Assembly (NCBI RefSeq): GCF_900205865.1
Contig: NZ_LT906662.1
Span: forward strand, 186,001-250,000
Direction: 5' to 3'
DNA from: Thermoanaerobacterium sp. RBIITD
GTDB lineage: Bacteria; Bacillota; Thermoanaerobacteria; Thermoanaerobacterales; Thermoanaerobacteraceae
DNA: 64,000 bases
In this document: positions 53,516 to 60,980 of the stretch, piece after piece
Layout of the letters: every line of letters starts with the position of its first letter
How positions within the stretch are numbered: position 1 is the first letter of the stretch
Notes under the pieces: model-generated
Databases searched by the model: none
Seen by the model: only the letters and a program-made list of their open reading frames with translations
What the model was told of the DNA's origin: nothing
Translations under genes and position numbers: made by a program

Positions 53516-55015
53516 TCAATGATTTATTTGTATTTTTTTTTCGTGTGGCACATGAAAATCAACTTCATCTGTATCGAGCTGGTCAATTCTTTCTTTTATA
53601 TTTTTGTATGTCGATGTATCACCAAATTTATTTACTGCTAACTTTGCTTGATTTACATTGTTATTGATAACACCAGCACCTCCAATGCATCCGCCAATGC
53701 ATGCCATTCCTTCTACAAAATTATTGGGAAGTTTTCCCGCTTTCATTATTTTTAAAGTTTTATTGCATTCCTCAAGTCCATTGCAAATAACTGGATTAAG
53801 TTCTATATCAACGTCCATTTCTTTTATTGCTTCTTTCACAGCTTCTAATACGCCGCCAGACCTTGCAAATTTTCTTCCAAACAGTGTTGCATCCTCAACT
53901 TTCATGTCTTCCTGCTCTTTGATATCTATTTCCGCTGCATCAAGTACAGCCACCATTTCTTCAAATGTCATGGCATAATCCGTTATTCCTTTAATTTCAT
54001 CTCTCATGATTTCTGATTTTTTGGCGGTACATGGACCTATAAAAACAGTTAATGCAGCAGGATCAAACTTTTTAATGTATTTTGAGATAGCCGTCATAGG
54101 TGATACTGTTGTCGATACATTTTCAGCAAGTTCAGGATAGCTTTTCCTAATATGTGTCACAAATGCAGGGCAGCATGAGCTTGTCATGACTTTTATATCA
54201 CCTATTTTTTCGCTAAATTCTTTTGCCTCTTCTGTTGCAACAAAATCAGCTCCAAGTGCAACTTCTATAACATCTGTGAATCCTAATTTCCTTAAAGCAG
54301 ATTTAACTTGCCCTACTGTTGCATCTTTAAATTGAGATGCTATAGCAGGTGCAATTAATGCATAAACCTTTTTTCCGCTTTTTATAGCTCTTATTATGCC
54401 TACGATGTATGATTTATCTGTTATAGCACCAAATGGGCATGCCAATGTGCACGCTCCACATGAAGTACATTTCTCATAATTAATAGCCGCTTTTAATTCT
54501 TCATCCATAGTTATTGCTTTCGCTGTACAAGAGCGTATGCATGGTCTTAAAGTATCTGATATCGCATTATATGGACATGCATCTTTACATCTGCCACATT
54601 CAATACATTTATCATAATCTATATGACTTCTCTTATCTATAATAGATATAGCACCTTTCGGACAAACCTCTGTACATTTATGTGTTAAACAGCCACGACA
54701 TGCTTCTGTAACCCTGTATCTTTTGATAGGACATTCTTCACAGGCTATATCTAGTATTTGTATAATGGGTTCCTCGCCTTCGATGGCATATTTCATAGTT
54801 CTTTTTAAATTTTTACCCATCGCTACTTTTATTCTCTGCTCGAGGATAGCTCTTTCTTTATACACACAGCATCTAAATCTAGGTTTTGTGCCAGGAATTA
54901 TTTCGTATGGTATTTCATCATATTCTTCATCCAGCTTATCTTCTAATGTTAATTTTGCTACTTTGTATAATACCTCATACTTTAACATCTGAATATCGGA
55001 ATTAAATTTAAACAA
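53516..55015 (-). CDS. hfsD: [FeFe] hydrogenase, catalytic type (HfsD-like)
   Basis: 499 residues. An N-terminal domain of about 90 residues, then clusters of ferredoxin-like cysteines (residues 92-123, 137-147, 183-193), then the H-cluster domain. H-cluster loops are intact: SSCCPAFV with Cys281 and Cys282, GPCTAKKSE with Cys329, and EGMACIGGCIGG with Cys439 and Cys443. Both cysteines of the first loop (proton relay and cubane ligand) are kept, so this is likely the hydrogen-forming enzyme. Start TTG with AGAAGGGG. Last gene of hfsABCD, which from memory was shown to be the main hydrogenase locus in T. saccharolyticum. Confidence 0.85.
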   Translation of the reverse strand: MFKFNSDIQMLKYEVLYKVAKLTLEDKLDEEYDEIPYEIIPGTKPRFRCCVYKERAILEQRIKVAMGKNLKRTMKYAIEGEEPIIQILDIACEECPIKRYRVTEACRGCLTHKCTEVCPKGAISIIDKRSHIDYDKCIECGRCKDACPYNAISDTLRPCIRSCTAKAITMDEELKAAINYEKCTSCGACTLACPFGAITDKSYIVGIIRAIKSGKKVYALIAPAIASQFKDATVGQVKSALRKLGFTDVIEVALGADFVATEEAKEFSEKIGDIKVMTSSCCPAFVTHIRKSYPELAENVSTTVSPMTAISKYIKKFDPAALTVFIGPCTAKKSEIMRDEIKGITDYAMTFEEMVAVLDAAEIDIKEQEDMKVEDATLFGRKFARSGGVLEAVKEAIKEMDVDIELNPVICNGLEECNKTLKIMKAGKLPNNFVEGMACIGGCIGGAGVINNNVNQAKLAVNKFGDTSTYKNIKERIDQLDTDEVDFHVPHEKKIQINH

Positions 55016-55030
55016 GATTATCTACCCCTT

Positions 55031-56191
55031 CTAAAAATAATTAACTTCTATATTTTTATTTAACTTGTATAATAAATCAATAAGTTCTTCTACGATTTTA
55101 ATCTTTATCCTTAAATCTGTAGGAAAATCAGGATTTTGGTGTGCACTATTAACGGCTTGACCGACTAAAAAATTAATATCCGTAGAATAATTTAATATCT
55201 TAAATAATTTTGTTGCGCCATCTTTTTTAGAATATTTAAGTAAATCTACATTATTATTTTCAATGTAATCCTTAAAAAGTTCTACAACCCTTCTTAGAGT
55301 TAGCACACCTTCTGTTACTAAATCAATACCATCTATCTTAGCAATAGGAGGTATATCAGGGTCAATATAATCAGTTGTAGTCAATACTTTTTTATTTAGT
55401 ACTCTTCCTACAATTTTTGCAGCAGTACCACCACATACTACTTTCAATCCTTCACTTTTTACCAGTTTCTTAACAACCCATTCGTCCATATTTTTAAGAA
55501 TTGGCGGTCCTATCATAACTGTAACTTTTTTAGATTCATTTGCTTTAATCACTATAGCAGTAGCATCATCACCAGGCTTATTTCTATACAAATTTTTACA
55601 CGTTGTTATAAGTTGGTAACATATATCTGAAGAGTCATCTAACACCTTTATAGTTTTCTCTAAATACTGTGATACATTTTCCCATTGCCAACCGAGATTT
55701 AAGATGCCTCCAACACCGGCATGTATAACCCCGTCTGATACAAGTACTAAAGTATCATTTAACTCTAGCTTAAATGAACTTTCGTATATCTTCTTATCGC
55801 CTATGACTATTAAATCCTTATTAATTTTTTTAGGAAGGCCATTTTTAAAATAAAATACTGAAGGATTATCATATTCAACAATATGAACATTATCACCTTC
55901 TATCGATACTACTGTAAATGTAGAATATGCTATATTTCTTTCGCTACATATTGGTAAAGTATGTGCCACTGTATCAACAACATCAGATAATTTAGAGCCC
56001 ATATCAAGCATCTTTGATACAATTCTAGATGTAAGTGTTGATAAAATGTTAGCTTTTACTCCACTACCAAGGCCATCTGCGAGTACTGCCATGACATAAT
56101 CTTTTTTACGTATAATTTGTACACTATCACCGCACAATTCTTCACCATATTTATTCAGTGAAGCATGTGCAACATCAATATAGTAACTCAT
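55031..56191 (-). CDS. hfsC: SpoIIE-type serine phosphatase (HfsC-like)
   Basis: 386 residues. N-terminal PP2C/SpoIIE phosphatase domain (about 1-220) with metal-binding ADGLGSGVKAN, VLVSDGVIHAG, and PGDDATAIVI. The C-terminal 160 residues (from VTVMIGPPILKNMDEW) are found in phosphatases tied to sensory hydrogenases and have no clear enzyme motif. Likely acts on an unknown phosphoprotein downstream of the HfsB sensor. ATG overlaps the hfsB stop by four bases. Confidence 0.82.
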   Translation of the reverse strand: MSYYIDVAHASLNKYGEELCGDSVQIIRKKDYVMAVLADGLGSGVKANILSTLTSRIVSKMLDMGSKLSDVVDTVAHTLPICSERNIAYSTFTVVSIEGDNVHIVEYDNPSVFYFKNGLPKKINKDLIVIGDKKIYESSFKLELNDTLVLVSDGVIHAGVGGILNLGWQWENVSQYLEKTIKVLDDSSDICYQLITTCKNLYRNKPGDDATAIVIKANESKKVTVMIGPPILKNMDEWVVKKLVKSEGLKVVCGGTAAKIVGRVLNKKVLTTTDYIDPDIPPIAKIDGIDLVTEGVLTLRRVVELFKDYIENNNVDLLKYSKKDGATKLFKILNYSTDINFLVGQAVNSAHQNPDFPTDLRIKIKIVEELIDLLYKLNKNIEVNYF

Positions 56192-57906
56192 TCGTTATCA
56201 CCTTGATTCAATAGCATATCCTTCATCCTTGTCAATATCACTTTCGTTTCTGCTGTTGTCTCTCCAAGAAGGCTTGCTATCTCCTGAGCTACTTTCATTT
56301 GTCTGTCTATAACTTGCTGTGCAAGTTCGTAATTCTCTTTTTTTACCTTAGAAAGAGCATCTTTCTGCTTTTCAATTTTGGTTATGTCTGTAAAAATTCC
56401 AATTGCAATTTTATATTCCTCTAAATAATAAATACTCTCTATTGCAACTATGCCATAATTCTTAAAGGATACTTTTTTGTTATATATATTTTTCTTATTT
56501 TCTATGACATCTTTAAAATCTGATATATCAATTATTAATGACAAATCCTCGTTTTTAAGCATAGCAGAATTTACAAGAAACATCTTTTCAAATGCCCTAT
56601 TCATGTCTTGTATTTCATATTTATTGTTAATAGCAATTATAGCATTAGGTGTAGAACCGATGATAATATTCGATAATGTTTCGGCCCTTCCTCTCATGTA
56701 TGGCATACACATATAGGGTTCAGCCATACCGTTATATACTGCAATAGCTTTTTCACGACATGTATCATATCCACATGCACCGCAATTTAATTCATCGTCT
56801 TTTGTAAATTTACCAATCCGTGACAATATATTTTTTATATCATCTTCAGATGGTACTTTCCATTTATCGCTTAAATTAATAAATTTTCTTGTAAGGTCTG
56901 GTATTGAATCTATATTTAAAGTATTTTTAGCATGGTACTGACTTTTTAATTTTGAATAATTCAATACTTCTTCTCTTCTTTTGACAATGCTTTTATTTAT
57001 TTTACCAAATGCTGGACCATTGATACAACTGCCATTACAAGTATTCGCTTCTATCCAGTATCCATGCAAAACACCAGACTTTATATCATTTAGCAAACCC
57101 CTAATTTCATCAATAGAAGAAACCGAAACAACATTACGTATATTCAAATCTACATCCATACAGTCGATTGTTTTACCTTCAATTGGATATAATTCAAAAG
57201 GAATATCTACATCGTTAAAATCCCTATAATCATCAAGACTCTCTACATCAATTTCTTCTTCTTTTAACCAGTCATTAATTTCCTCAAAAGTAAGAACTGC
57301 ATCAATAGCATTTTCACAACTAAAATCATTCATTTCAACTTTTTTAGCAAGACACGGTCCTATAAATACAACTTTTGTTTTATCACCATAGATTTTCTTT
57401 ATTGTCCTTCCAATAGCTATCATTGGTGACACAACAGGTACAAGACAATTTATTAATTCTGGATAATATTTTTCGACTAAATAATTTACTGATGGACATG
57501 ACGTAGTAATCAAATTGTCATATGACAAATCGTTATAGTATTTTTCATACTCTTTTGTTATTAGCTTAGCACCAATGGATGTCTCCAAAATCAAATCAGG
57601 TCCTAACATTTTAAGAGCATTAATAAATTTAAATGAATTCTCATAGCCTACAAGTGCTGGATACGAAGGTGCTACAGTAAAGATAACTTTCTCCCCTTTA
57701 TTCAAAAACATCTTAACCGTTTCGATATCCGAGCGCACTGTTTTAGCATTTTGCGGGCATACATTTAAGCATCTTCCGCAAGCGATACACATGTAATCAA
57801 CTATTTCCGCTTGTTCATTATTAACTTTTATAGCTTTTACAGGGCAATATCTTATACATTTATAGCAGTTTCTACAGTTGGCTTTCTTAAAATTAATAAC
57901 GCTCAT
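56188..57906 (-). CDS. hfsB: PAS-containing [FeFe]-hydrogenase-like sensor (HfsB-like)
   Basis: 572 residues. Two ferredoxin clusters (C11-C21 and C40-C50), an H-cluster-like domain (about 70-310), a four-cysteine Fe-S motif CGACGYDTC..C (375-400), a PAS domain (about 415-520), and a coiled coil to the end. H-cluster loops are TTSCPS (Cys137), GPCLAKKVE (Cys185) and NTCNGSC (Cys290, Cys294). The first loop has one cysteine where catalytic enzymes have two: the retained one aligns with the cubane ligand and Ser136 replaces the proton-relay cysteine. A sensory role is therefore likely. No transmembrane helix or kinase domain. ATGA overlap with hfsA. Confidence 0.85.
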   Translation of the reverse strand: MSVINFKKANCRNCYKCIRYCPVKAIKVNNEQAEIVDYMCIACGRCLNVCPQNAKTVRSDIETVKMFLNKGEKVIFTVAPSYPALVGYENSFKFINALKMLGPDLILETSIGAKLITKEYEKYYNDLSYDNLITTSCPSVNYLVEKYYPELINCLVPVVSPMIAIGRTIKKIYGDKTKVVFIGPCLAKKVEMNDFSCENAIDAVLTFEEINDWLKEEEIDVESLDDYRDFNDVDIPFELYPIEGKTIDCMDVDLNIRNVVSVSSIDEIRGLLNDIKSGVLHGYWIEANTCNGSCINGPAFGKINKSIVKRREEVLNYSKLKSQYHAKNTLNIDSIPDLTRKFINLSDKWKVPSEDDIKNILSRIGKFTKDDELNCGACGYDTCREKAIAVYNGMAEPYMCMPYMRGRAETLSNIIIGSTPNAIIAINNKYEIQDMNRAFEKMFLVNSAMLKNEDLSLIIDISDFKDVIENKKNIYNKKVSFKNYGIVAIESIYYLEEYKIAIGIFTDITKIEKQKDALSKVKKENYELAQQVIDRQMKVAQEIASLLGETTAETKVILTRMKDMLLNQGDNE

Positions 57907-58148
57907 TTTATATTTGCCAAAATATTTTCTTTAAAAAATTTTTGAACTAGATTTGATTTAATAGAAAGACATTCACCATTATTTATTTTAATAGAAACTG
58001 CCCTCATGCAATTGCCCATACAAAAATCTGCTTTTAGCTCCACTTTGCCCTCAAGATTATAATCCTTTATATATCTTTTTAGTATATTGATAACGTCATA
58101 TGAACCTTTAAGATGGCATGAGCTTCCAACACAAACAGTAATAGTCAT
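57903..58148 (-). CDS. hfsA: Small thioredoxin-like [2Fe-2S] protein (HfsA-like)
   Basis: 81 residues. Thioredoxin-like ferredoxin fold with four cysteines: CVGSSC near 6-11 and CMGNC near 43-47, the spacing of the NuoE/HydA-associated 2Fe-2S proteins. Probably shuttles electrons to HfsB or HfsD. Start ATG with GGGGGATTTTT. First gene of the operon; the stop overlaps hfsB. Its leader carries a GTATACTGTATAC palindrome and the promoter carries a Rex-like site. Confidence 0.8.
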   Translation of the reverse strand: MTITVCVGSSCHLKGSYDVINILKRYIKDYNLEGKVELKADFCMGNCMRAVSIKINNGECLSIKSNLVQKFFKENILANIK

Positions 58149-58242: not shown

Positions 58243-58458
58243 TTAATCTTCTTCAAATACATCTTCCATTAATTTTTTCAATTTACGTGCCCTTTTAACT
58301 GTTTCTTCTTTATTTACATTTAAAGAGATGTCAATAACGTCCCCTTCCATAACATTGCTAGGAAGATATTTTACAGGAATATTTATTTTCTTTTCATCGT
58401 CAAGTACAACAACAGCTACATCATCTTCAATTCTATCAACAACACCATGAACCCTCAT
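58243..58458 (-). CDS. DUF3006 family protein
   Basis: 71 residues, acidic. The whole is a DUF3006 domain: VHGVVDRIEDDVAVVVLDDE, then INIPVKYLPSNVMEGDVI. Small beta-barrel-like domain of unknown role, common in clostridia. The ATG at 58458 is preferred over an ORF extended by 17 codons, because GAGGTG lies six bases before it. Sits alone between hfsA and the DUF1858 gene. Confidence 0.8.
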   Translation of the reverse strand: MRVHGVVDRIEDDVAVVVLDDEKKINIPVKYLPSNVMEGDVIDISLNVNKEETVKRARKLKKLMEDVFEED

Positions 58459-58535
58459 GTGAAACACCTCTTTCATAAATATTATACATCTTTTATAATA
58501 GATTATCAATATTATTAAATATCTTTAACAATTTT

Positions 58536-58575: not shown

Positions 58576-58773
58576 CTAATCTTGATTAATTTTATTATTT
58601 AGATCTTTTAATAAATTTTCTAAGTTTACCCCATACATTCGAGCGGCCCGCTCGATACTCATGTAGAGTGCACCACCTCATCCAAAGCATCTTATACCAT
58701 TATTTTTAAATACATTTTCGAGCTTTGGATATTTCTCTAGTACATCAAATACAATCATATCCTTACTAATCAT
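58576..58773 (-). CDS. DUF1858 redox-disulfide protein, in-frame TGA (candidate selenoprotein)
   Basis: 65 codons counting the TGA. Reading through gives MISKDMIVFDVLEKYPKLEN then VFKNNGIRCFG-(TGA)-GGALYMSIERAARMYGVNL and a final LENLLKDLNNKINQD. It aligns along its whole length with the small DUF1858 (hybrid-cluster-associated redox) family, and the TGA (58678-58680) falls exactly on the second cysteine of the CxxC motif. A GC-rich hairpin follows: stem TCGAGCG/CGCTCGA (58639-58655) with loop GGC, plus an outer stem TACAT/ATGTA. The loop G is about 30 bases after TGA, inside the range of bacterial SECIS elements. Start ATG with AAAGGAGGGTG. A nonsense mutation is the alternative. Confidence 0.65.
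58639..58655 (-). promoter_or_regulatory. SECIS-like hairpin in the DUF1858 gene
   Basis: Upper stem of 7 bp with a GGC loop. An outer 5-bp stem (TACAT/ATGTA) with a 5-base bulge on the 5' side extends it to 58634-58665. The strong GC content stands out from the AT-rich surroundings, within coding sequence just after the TGA. Confidence 0.5.
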
Positions 58774-58788
58774 TTGTCACCCTCCTTT

Positions 58789-58810
58789 ACCCCCCTTATA
58801 TATAGGGGGT
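58789..58810 (-). promoter_or_regulatory. CsoR-like operator upstream of the DUF1858 gene
   Basis: Inverted repeat ACCCCCC-TTATATATA-GGGGGT. Paired C/G tracts around an AT centre are the pattern bound by CsoR/CstR-type repressors. It overlaps a -10-like TATATA and ends 16 bases before the start codon; the csoR-family gene lies directly upstream. Confidence 0.6.
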
Positions 58811-58851: not shown

Positions 58852-59118
58852 TTATTTAAGAAATTTAACTAATAAATTAACTACACTTTGCATATCCTCA
58901 AATGATATTTTGCCATCTTCATTTGAAAGAAGACATTCCTGTGCATGTTCATTGATAATAGACAATCCAACCTTTTCAAGTGATGACCGAACAGCAGCAA
59001 TTTGCAAAAGCACATCAGAACATCCTTTGTTTTCTTCAACCATTTTCTCTATTCCTGCTATATGGCCTTTTATTGTCTTCAATCTCAGCAATATATCATC
59101 TTTTATATTTTCACTCAT
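58852..59118 (-). CDS. CsoR/CstR-family metal- or persulfide-sensing repressor
   Basis: 88 residues, all helical. The sensing residues are present as Cys in NKGCSDVLLQIAAVR (about 32) and His and Cys in NEHAQEC (about 57 and 61), an x-C-H-C pattern as in copper sensors. Copper, another metal or sulfane sulfur could be the signal. Start ATG-Ser-Glu with GAAGGGTG; the ORF extends six codons further. It overlaps nothing but the glycosyltransferase gene upstream ends 15 bases before it. Likely represses the DUF1858 gene downstream through the operator at 58789-58810. Confidence 0.85.
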   Translation of the reverse strand: MSENIKDDILLRLKTIKGHIAGIEKMVEENKGCSDVLLQIAAVRSSLEKVGLSIINEHAQECLLSNEDGKISFEDMQSVVNLLVKFLK

Positions 59119-59132
59119 AATTAACGCACCCT

Positions 59133-60248
59133 TCAATTTATTTTTATCCCTTTATTTAGTTTTTCATAAATGATTTTCATTTCTTTTTTGAAAATTTCGT
59201 TCCAATCATATGATATCGCCAATTTTCTACCATTTTGTCCACATATCATCATTTTATTTTTTCCATTGATTAATTCTATGGTTTTTTCAATATAATCAAT
59301 AATATTATACTCTATTGTTATACCACATTCATTATTTTTTATCAAATCACCAAGATCCCCTATATCAGTTGCAATAACAGGCAACCCTGATGCCATATAT
59401 TCTATCGCTTTTAAAGGAAAAGAATATTTTATTAGTTCCGTCGGAAATAAAGTGCATAATCCAATATCCGCTTTTTTAAAATAATTTGGTAAATCATTGT
59501 ATTTTACTATTCCATTAAAATGTACATAATCATCTACCATATAATCCCTTGCCAATTTTCTAAGTGTAGGTTCATATTTACCTCTACCAATAATTTCAAT
59601 ATATACATTTCCACACTCTCTTCTTAAAATTGGTAATGCTTTTATAGGCAATTCCATTCCAGACCAATGTTCCAGAGAACCACTGAATATGAGACAAATA
59701 CCTTCATGTATTGCTTTTTCATTTTTAAAGATTTCGTAATTAACACCATTTGGTATGTAATATGGTGTAATCCCAGTCATATGTTCCCTCAGTTCTACTA
59801 AATGTTGATTAACACTAAATGTTACATCAGAGTTTTCTATGCAGTATTTTTCCATGTATTTAGTCCTATTATAAACATCTTCATATTCAAAGAAAGCTGG
59901 AAAATAGTCGATGTCCTCATAGGCCAAAAAATTTATTTTTCCTGCCTTGAGAAGTTCTACTGCTGTTATGCCTGCCCATGGACCTTGTGCAATACATACA
60001 TCGTATTTTTCACTATCAAGTTCAATATAACTTTTATAAAGTGTCATCGGACTAAAAAGACTCGCAAATTTTACTGGTATACCTATATATTTTATCATTT
60101 CATCCTTCTTCTTTAATATACCTAAGTCATCATAACGGCAGAATACTACAGTCAAATCATATTTACCTTTTAGAAATTCTATAATATGGTGGCTCCTTTG
60201 TGGCAACGAATTTAATATATCTATAAAAGTTATAAATAATATCTTCAC
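59133..60248 (-). CDS. Glycosyltransferase family 4 protein
   Basis: 371 residues. GT-B fold: N-terminal MKILFITFIDILNSLPQRS, and a C-terminal Glycos_transf_1 domain with IFSGSLEHWSGM, IIGRGKYEP, FNGIVKYNDLPNYF, and the donor-binding FPLKAIEYMASGLPVIATD with E-x7-E spacing. Substrate unknown. GTG start with AGGAGGGG. It stands alone upstream of csoR with a 14-base gap and could share its transcript. Confidence 0.8.
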   Translation of the reverse strand: MKILFITFIDILNSLPQRSHHIIEFLKGKYDLTVVFCRYDDLGILKKKDEMIKYIGIPVKFASLFSPMTLYKSYIELDSEKYDVCIAQGPWAGITAVELLKAGKINFLAYEDIDYFPAFFEYEDVYNRTKYMEKYCIENSDVTFSVNQHLVELREHMTGITPYYIPNGVNYEIFKNEKAIHEGICLIFSGSLEHWSGMELPIKALPILRRECGNVYIEIIGRGKYEPTLRKLARDYMVDDYVHFNGIVKYNDLPNYFKKADIGLCTLFPTELIKYSFPLKAIEYMASGLPVIATDIGDLGDLIKNNECGITIEYNIIDYIEKTIELINGKNKMMICGQNGRKLAISYDWNEIFKKEMKIIYEKLNKGIKIN

Positions 60249-60311: not shown

Positions 60312-60980
60312 TCAATATGGTGAATACGGAGCTTTTTGCGGTGGGAATATCGGTGGGAATGGTCTTGACATAAACTCATCGCAAACATTTGTAGGAAATT
60401 CTTCACATTCAGGCGGTACAGGACAGAATCCATATGATGGAACAAGCAACTGTACATCCATTGCTGATTTTATTATAATCCATACACCTATAATTACTTC
60501 AACTGTTGTTGGCGTTCCAACATTTACTCTTCCAAATAAGCATTCAGCAACCGCCTCGTATTTCATAATTGCAGTCGCAGGTTCCGGTACATAAAGTACT
60601 ATATCTTTTGAAAATGTAGTTGTTAATCCTGTTAATGTTTGAACATCACCAGATGCATTTGTAATAATAACATCATATGTTACTTGGAATGTTGCCTGTA
60701 CCCTTGCAAATCCTGGTCTTTCAGGAATAGGTGTAATAGTAAATCCAGGAGGACTTACGAGTGTTACAGTAACATTCTCACAGCGACCAAATGTCGGATT
60801 TGTAATAGTCGGGACAAATGGTATTGGTGGTATATTGTCAAGGCATAATCTTTGTGAGCAAGCATCGTATATCTTTGTAACTTCTATGCAAGTTATTTCT
60901 GTCGGTTCTGGAAGTTGGCCTGGTTCAACAGGACCTGGTCCTACTTCTTGCTGTCCAATTAATTTTTTAGCAAATGCCAT
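60312..60980 (-). CDS. Cysteine-containing protein of unknown function (possible spore coat-like)
   Basis: 222 residues. I do not recognise it firmly. It has no signal peptide, a beta-strand-rich character, eight or so cysteines (ITCIEVTKIYDACSQRLCLD at 29-48, GRCENVTVTLVSPPG, CPVPPECEEFPTNVCDEF near the end) and a proline-rich tail ending FPPIFPPQKAPYSPY. The KIYDACSQR text recalls SPOCS/DUF3794-type spore proteins, but the match is weak. Start ATG with AAGGGGG. Divergent from the plus-strand gene at 61106, with 125 bases between them. Confidence 0.6.
   Translation of the reverse strand: MAFAKKLIGQQEVGPGPVEPGQLPEPTEITCIEVTKIYDACSQRLCLDNIPPIPFVPTITNPTFGRCENVTVTLVSPPGFTITPIPERPGFARVQATFQVTYDVIITNASGDVQTLTGLTTTFSKDIVLYVPEPATAIMKYEAVAECLFGRVNVGTPTTVEVIIGVWIIIKSAMDVQLLVPSYGFCPVPPECEEFPTNVCDEFMSRPFPPIFPPQKAPYSPY

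Follow-up and report, generated by a model that had tools for sequence, protein, structure and literature searches.

A predicted CxxU selenoprotein of the DUF1858 family, with a SECIS-like hairpin in its gene, in Thermoanaerobacterium sp. RBIITD

Results

The DUF1858 gene and its in-frame TGA

The window (the whole stretch of 64,000 nucleotides that was analysed) includes a short gene of the DUF1858 family that contains an in-frame TGA codon. The features of this locus, and one from elsewhere in the same genome that served as a positive control, are the following.

58576-58773, minus strand: predicted selenoprotein gene of the DUF1858 family (65 codons and a stop) with CxxU at residues 29-32 (translation, PF08984, TIGR03980)
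58678-58680, minus strand: UGA codon, very probably read as selenocysteine (Sec, residue 32); in alignments it falls on the second CxxC cysteine (same codon in 23 relatives; Cys in 2k53 and 2k5e)
58639-58655, minus strand: SECIS-like hairpin of a 7-bp stem and the loop GGC, with 29 nt between the UGA and the loop (conservation and covariation)
58789-58810, minus strand: inverted repeat ACCCCC-N10-GGGGGT upstream of the DUF1858 gene, possibly an operator
58852-59136, minus strand: CsoR-family repressor gene (PF02583, 83 bits), next upstream, a possible regulator
Source genome at about 2.9636 Mb (locus L071, 4612-4614): in-frame TGA of selD, followed by a 10-bp hairpin

A preliminary description of this DNA had claimed, without giving a strand, a 65-codon frame broken by a TGA alone, at the second cysteine of a CxxC motif. 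This was confirmed by translation of the minus strand, where the sole break of the frame (58773-58576) is a TGA at 58680-58678 within C-F-G-TGA. When the TGA is read as Sec, the product has 65 residues, with C-F-G-U at residues 29-32. The likeness to DUF1858, which had been said to continue past the TGA, extends over the full length of both family models: the read-through product matches PF08984 with 58.7 bits (cut-off 32.2, profile positions 1-59 of 59) and TIGR03980 with 62 bits (cut-off 44.95, whole profile covered). In an alignment of homologues, which the preliminary description had proposed as a check, the TGA stands opposite a Cys, including in the solved proteins 2k53 and 2k5e. A profile search of the source genome (3.40 Mb) gave this gene, with one TGA inside, as the only DUF1858 match. 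The sequence AAAGGAGGGTG is found directly 5' of the ATG and is likely the ribosome-binding site.

Relatives in the family, the class and the phylum

In the family of the source genome (G000), DUF1858 is present in 2 of 20 genomes, G000 included, and both of them (G000 and G001) have the TGA. Sixteen of 37 genomes of the class encode DUF1858; three of these have the TGA (G000, G001 and G036, all in one order) and 13, all from another family, are free of a stop. The other DUF1858 genes that were found in the order, those of G001 and G036, thus have TGA and not Cys at the site. In the wider phylum, PF08984 was matched by 238 of 398 genomes. A profile from the three order members matched 222 of the 398, and among the matches listed 25 contained one TGA. 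Together with G001 these gave 26 loci that were read. The second CxxC cysteine is the one replaced by the TGA in 24 of them, i.e. in this gene and in 23 relatives, from 24 genomes; coming from the matches listed, this makes at least 24 Sec-type genes in the phylum sample. A single-protein scan of the named genome collection identified one distant relative, with Cys.

Among the Sec-type genes, that of G001 (L069, 8336-8497) encodes Y-x-x-U, i.e. the partner Cys is replaced by Tyr, so that Sec is kept and the resolving Cys is lost. The remaining two of the 26 loci differ in their TGA. In G039 it is the terminal stop only, and in G395 (L116, 3517-3714) it stands at the first Cys and is followed by only a weak hairpin that conforms to the rules given below (-3.5); selA is present in this genome, and we are unsure whether its TGA encodes Sec.

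A tree of 60 rows and 66 columns was examined, its Sec rows being all in-frame-TGA matches read and its Cys rows G039 and 34 controls. Its layout has one Sec group, plus G158 among the Cys rows, and the Sec label takes 2 changes as against a mean of 19.4 in shuffles; the starred branches force only one change. With rows chosen as above and many forks open, the clustering is no more than a lead. The hairpin of G158 (L121, 3321-3503) is found at 32 nt and not at 29. Its place among the Cys rows suggests that G158 may represent a separate, independent Cys-to-Sec conversion.

Genomic context of the DUF1858 gene

The CsoR-family gene and the DUF1858 gene are separated by the inverted repeat. In an alignment with the solved CsoR 4m1p, Cys39, His64 and Cys68 of the CsoR-family protein stand opposite Cys, His and Cys, respectively. 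The same residues are common to a CsoR-like protein of G036 (46% identity). In that genome the csoR-like gene is followed by a thioredoxin-like one, identified by eye through its WCGPC motif, and then by DUF1858-Sec. We take this Cys/His/Cys trio to be the mark of a copper CsoR. The exact 22-mer of the inverted repeat occurs once in the window with three mismatches allowed, and its pattern was not found in the 120 bases that precede each of the remaining 25 loci. A CsoR-family neighbour is present in 2 of the 26 loci; near the other 24, where several contigs end close by, neither a CsoR nor a thioredoxin relative was found. CsoR was therefore rejected as a general partner; the link is local, and its meaning is conjectural. 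As for the CsoR-like operator of the preliminary description, the DUF1858 gene is indeed preceded by a CsoR-family gene and by an inverted repeat of C and G that may be an operator, but this neighbour is rare.

One operon common to the phylum was not seen; 10 neighbouring ORFs from 5 genomes looked different between groups when compared by eye, and some related genomes have similar ORF layouts. Nor does the name of the TIGR03980 model point to a local partner, because the hybrid cluster protein gene of the source genome (796.1 bits) is at 1.28 Mb and the DUF1858 gene at 0.24 Mb.

Several further genes of the window were noted. The next one downstream of the DUF1858 gene encodes a small DUF3006 protein (58243-58509, 70.7 bits). 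The region 53516-58148 encodes an [FeFe] hydrogenase of the group B1 type (630 bits), a protein with a SpoIIE-type phosphatase domain, a second hydrogenase-like protein that does not reach the B1 cut-off, and a short protein resembling NuoE; this cluster could be a hydrogen-sensing unit. An ORF of 222 residues at 60312-60980 had no NCBIfam or Pfam match at 0.001.

The upstream context bears on what such a protein might do. Its main task could be that of a sensor or carrier in copper, persulfide or NO stress, under CsoR-family control, and not general disulfide reduction. The csoR-like gene and the repeat directly upstream would fit such a role, as would the order csoR, thioredoxin, DUF1858-Sec in G036 and a Cys-type DUF1858 gene that a table row of PMC6710368 places within a denitrification regulon. 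With 24 of the 26 loci read devoid of a CsoR relative in their flanks, several of which are short, and the repeat unseen upstream of the other loci, we regard this as an unlikely main function.

Selenocysteine machinery

The reading of the TGA as Sec presupposes a dedicated decoding system. The preliminary description had proposed a search for its components, and all four were identified in the source genome: a tRNA-Sec with anticodon tca (75.1 bits, over the cut-off), selA (615.4 bits), selB (362.1 bits) and selD (388.1 bits, with one in-frame TGA), all within 2.963-2.975 Mb. The hairpin that follows the UGA of selD has a 3-nt loop, GTT, 33 nt past the UGA; an alternative fold has 9 bp and the loop GGTTC, 32 nt past it.

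In order to see the distribution of the machinery, selA was scored across the genomes examined. It is over the cut-off in 24 of the 25 genomes with an in-frame TGA in DUF1858, namely G000, G001, G036 and 21 of 22 others, among them G395; the sole one in which selA was not found, G265, is 75% complete. The corresponding counts are 18 of 30 other genomes of the same phylum survey, 3 of 21 family and order genomes that have no DUF1858, and 0 of 4 genomes whose DUF1858 is of the Cys form. Of the 8 other members of the genus, none has DUF1858 and none has selA over the cut-off; two of them have weak selA matches below it (one of these two genomes is 89% complete).

A SECIS-like hairpin downstream of the UGA

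A hairpin about 30 bases past the TGA, GC-rich, with a 7-bp stem and a GGC loop, had been claimed and was confirmed: TCGAGCG-GGC-CGCTCGA is located at 58655-58639 of the minus strand, with a spacing of 29 nt from the TGA to the loop. An additional TACAT/ATGTA stem, also claimed, can form here but is not conserved. Over the 24 Sec-type genes it is paired in 51.7% of cells and exhibits no two-sided change, and it was left out as a part of the SECIS.

Rules for bacterial SECIS elements given in a figure legend of PMC13188914 include a loop of 3-9 nt, an upper stem of 4-16 bp, a position 16-37 nt after the UGA, a G within the first two loop positions and an MFE of at most -7.5. The hairpin described here lies within all of these limits (7 bp, loop GGC, 29 nt, -9.2 kcal/mol). 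When the same peptide was recoded synonymously, 4 of 5000 recodings yielded a rule-conforming hairpin of equal or greater stability. Taken by itself, the energy of folding the segment is not exceptional (z of -0.81 to -0.95 against plain shuffles) and is uninformative as proof of a SECIS.

The Sec-type genes were compared with 34 Cys homologues. This control set comprised the loci of L025-L100 with a G[LMIVHYF]xCxGC motif near the middle, identical peptides being counted once; loci that lack the motif dropped out and Sec loci were excluded by hand. All 24 Sec-type genes but none of the 34 Cys homologues have a stem of 6 bp or longer whose loop has at most 5 nt and lies at 28-32 nt, a placing derived from the Sec genes themselves. 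A 3-nt loop at exactly 29 nt was found in 22/24 and 0/34, respectively. The energy of the bare hairpin is -7.5 kcal/mol or lower in 14 Sec-type genes, this gene included, as against no Cys homologue, and -6.5 or lower in all 24 as against two of the 34. The small loop contains a G in every Sec-type gene. The conservation of the hairpin, which the preliminary description had left to be checked, thus extends to all 24 genes. The residue that closes the stem also differs between the two sets: every Sec form (24/24) has R, Q or L there, and 21 of the 34 Cys forms have M or A.

Covariation of the stem

The seven stem pairs were followed through the 24 Sec-type genes, which align without gaps, and compared with 500 shuffles. 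Standard pairs occupy 94.6% of cells (shuffles, 88.2%), 17 cells are changed on both sides (shuffles, 5.0) and the covariation score is 0.316 (shuffles, 0.182); none of the 500 shuffles reached any of these three values. Two measures were weaker: three of the seven pairs have two-sided changes, a number reached by 15 of 500 shuffles, and 7 further pair types occur, which 62 of 500 reached. Slid versions of the stem pairing left 22.6-42.9% of cells paired. The two-sided changes are found at pairs 27-41 and 29-39 in 9 and 7 genes, respectively, and at pair 32-36 in the source-genome gene alone.

The stem lies within the codons of a conserved protein motif (I/V-E/G-Q/R-G/A-A), its conservation is partly protein-driven, and three of its seven pairs are invariant across the 24 genes. 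The hairpin might thus be a by-product of these codons and no SECIS, whether the TGA encodes Sec or ends translation. However, the Cys homologues, which have a related motif, form no such hairpin (0/34), and in the Sec forms synonymous third-position changes are matched by amino-acid changes on the opposite side, at the residue that is always R, Q or L. We consider a by-product highly improbable. A pseudogene, i.e. an ordinary CxxC gene with a nonsense mutation or a sequencing error, as the lone TGA and the lack of any ORF of at least 60 amino acids at the locus in standard gene finding might suggest, was rejected as scarcely credible, since 23 relatives, each in another genome, have their TGA at this very codon, the frame is conserved past it and the hairpin covaries; the earlier remark that a nonsense mutation would hardly be expected to leave a matching hairpin agrees with these relatives.

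Discussion

We conclude, from sequence comparison, that Sec is very probably inserted at the UGA of this DUF1858 gene. The selenoprotein reading, already put forward in the preliminary description, is supported by the machinery, by the TGA codon shared among 24 genes, and by the conserved, covarying hairpin. By analogy with established bacterial biology, SelB and Sec-tRNA-Sec would bind the hairpin and decode the UGA, giving the 65-residue CxxU protein. With less certainty, Sec32 and Cys29 may form a reversible selenenylsulfide that would take part in redox reactions of thiols, disulfides or reactive sulfur, the protein may be recharged by thioredoxin, and the gene may here be controlled by the CsoR-family repressor. 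A redox role is predicted with moderate confidence, selenol/thiol chemistry being our best guess; the thioredoxin gene between csoR and DUF1858-Sec in G036 was counted in its favour.

DUF1858 (PF08984) selenoproteins with CxxU are already tabulated, with WP_012065717.1 as an example, in the reviews PMC9312934 and PMC13188914, and the gene described here is a further member of this recognised family. It has in common with the tabulated protein the domain and the CxxU motif, a likeness based on the table description and not on the sequence of WP_012065717.1; the CsoR-family neighbour and the inverted repeat described here were seen in few loci. A full-text literature search for DUF1858 together with selenoprotein found only these two papers. 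The main text of PMC5029168, one of two primary papers that PMC9312934 cites for the DUF1858 family, does not include the term DUF1858, and neither 'DUF' nor pfam08984 occurs in the main text of PMC2398784, the other primary paper cited there.

The Cys-type DUF1858/TIGR03980 proteins 2k53 and 2k5e belong by sequence to the same fold family (2.6e-10 and 5.6e-9) and have the same CxxC site, but here the site carries the predicted Sec, and the Cys homologues lack the SECIS-like hairpin. The relation to the N-terminal domain of ScdA (PF04405) is weak (20.4 bits, below the cut-off of 32.5). The protein matches the solved ScdA 9r7j with an E of 4.5e-5 (9j47 is another solved ScdA), yet it is far below the cut-offs of the ScdA models and its 65 residues include no further ScdA domain. 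Passages of other papers mention DUF1858 in nitrate respiration (PMC6282519), in a comparison with ScdA in a peroxide-regulator study (PMC8638851), and in fusion to SufT (PMC4982691).

A bolder proposal is an order-level unit of csoR, thioredoxin and the CxxU protein that is under CsoR-family control and whose chemistry depends on Sec alone. We think it quite doubtful. If true, it would explain how the partner Cys could be lost in G001 and would link the use of selenium to stress from copper or reactive sulfur.

Ordinary annotation would label the DUF1858-Sec gene as truncated or as a pseudogene. The comparison shows that the phylum holds a substantial group of Sec-type DUF1858 genes whose SECIS geometry hardly varies (a 3-nt loop at 29 nt in 22/24), and in which the RNA seems to dictate a residue of the protein, the R, Q or L that closes the stem. 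The natural variants in G001, G158 and G395 would allow the role of Sec to be tested in an uncharacterised domain.
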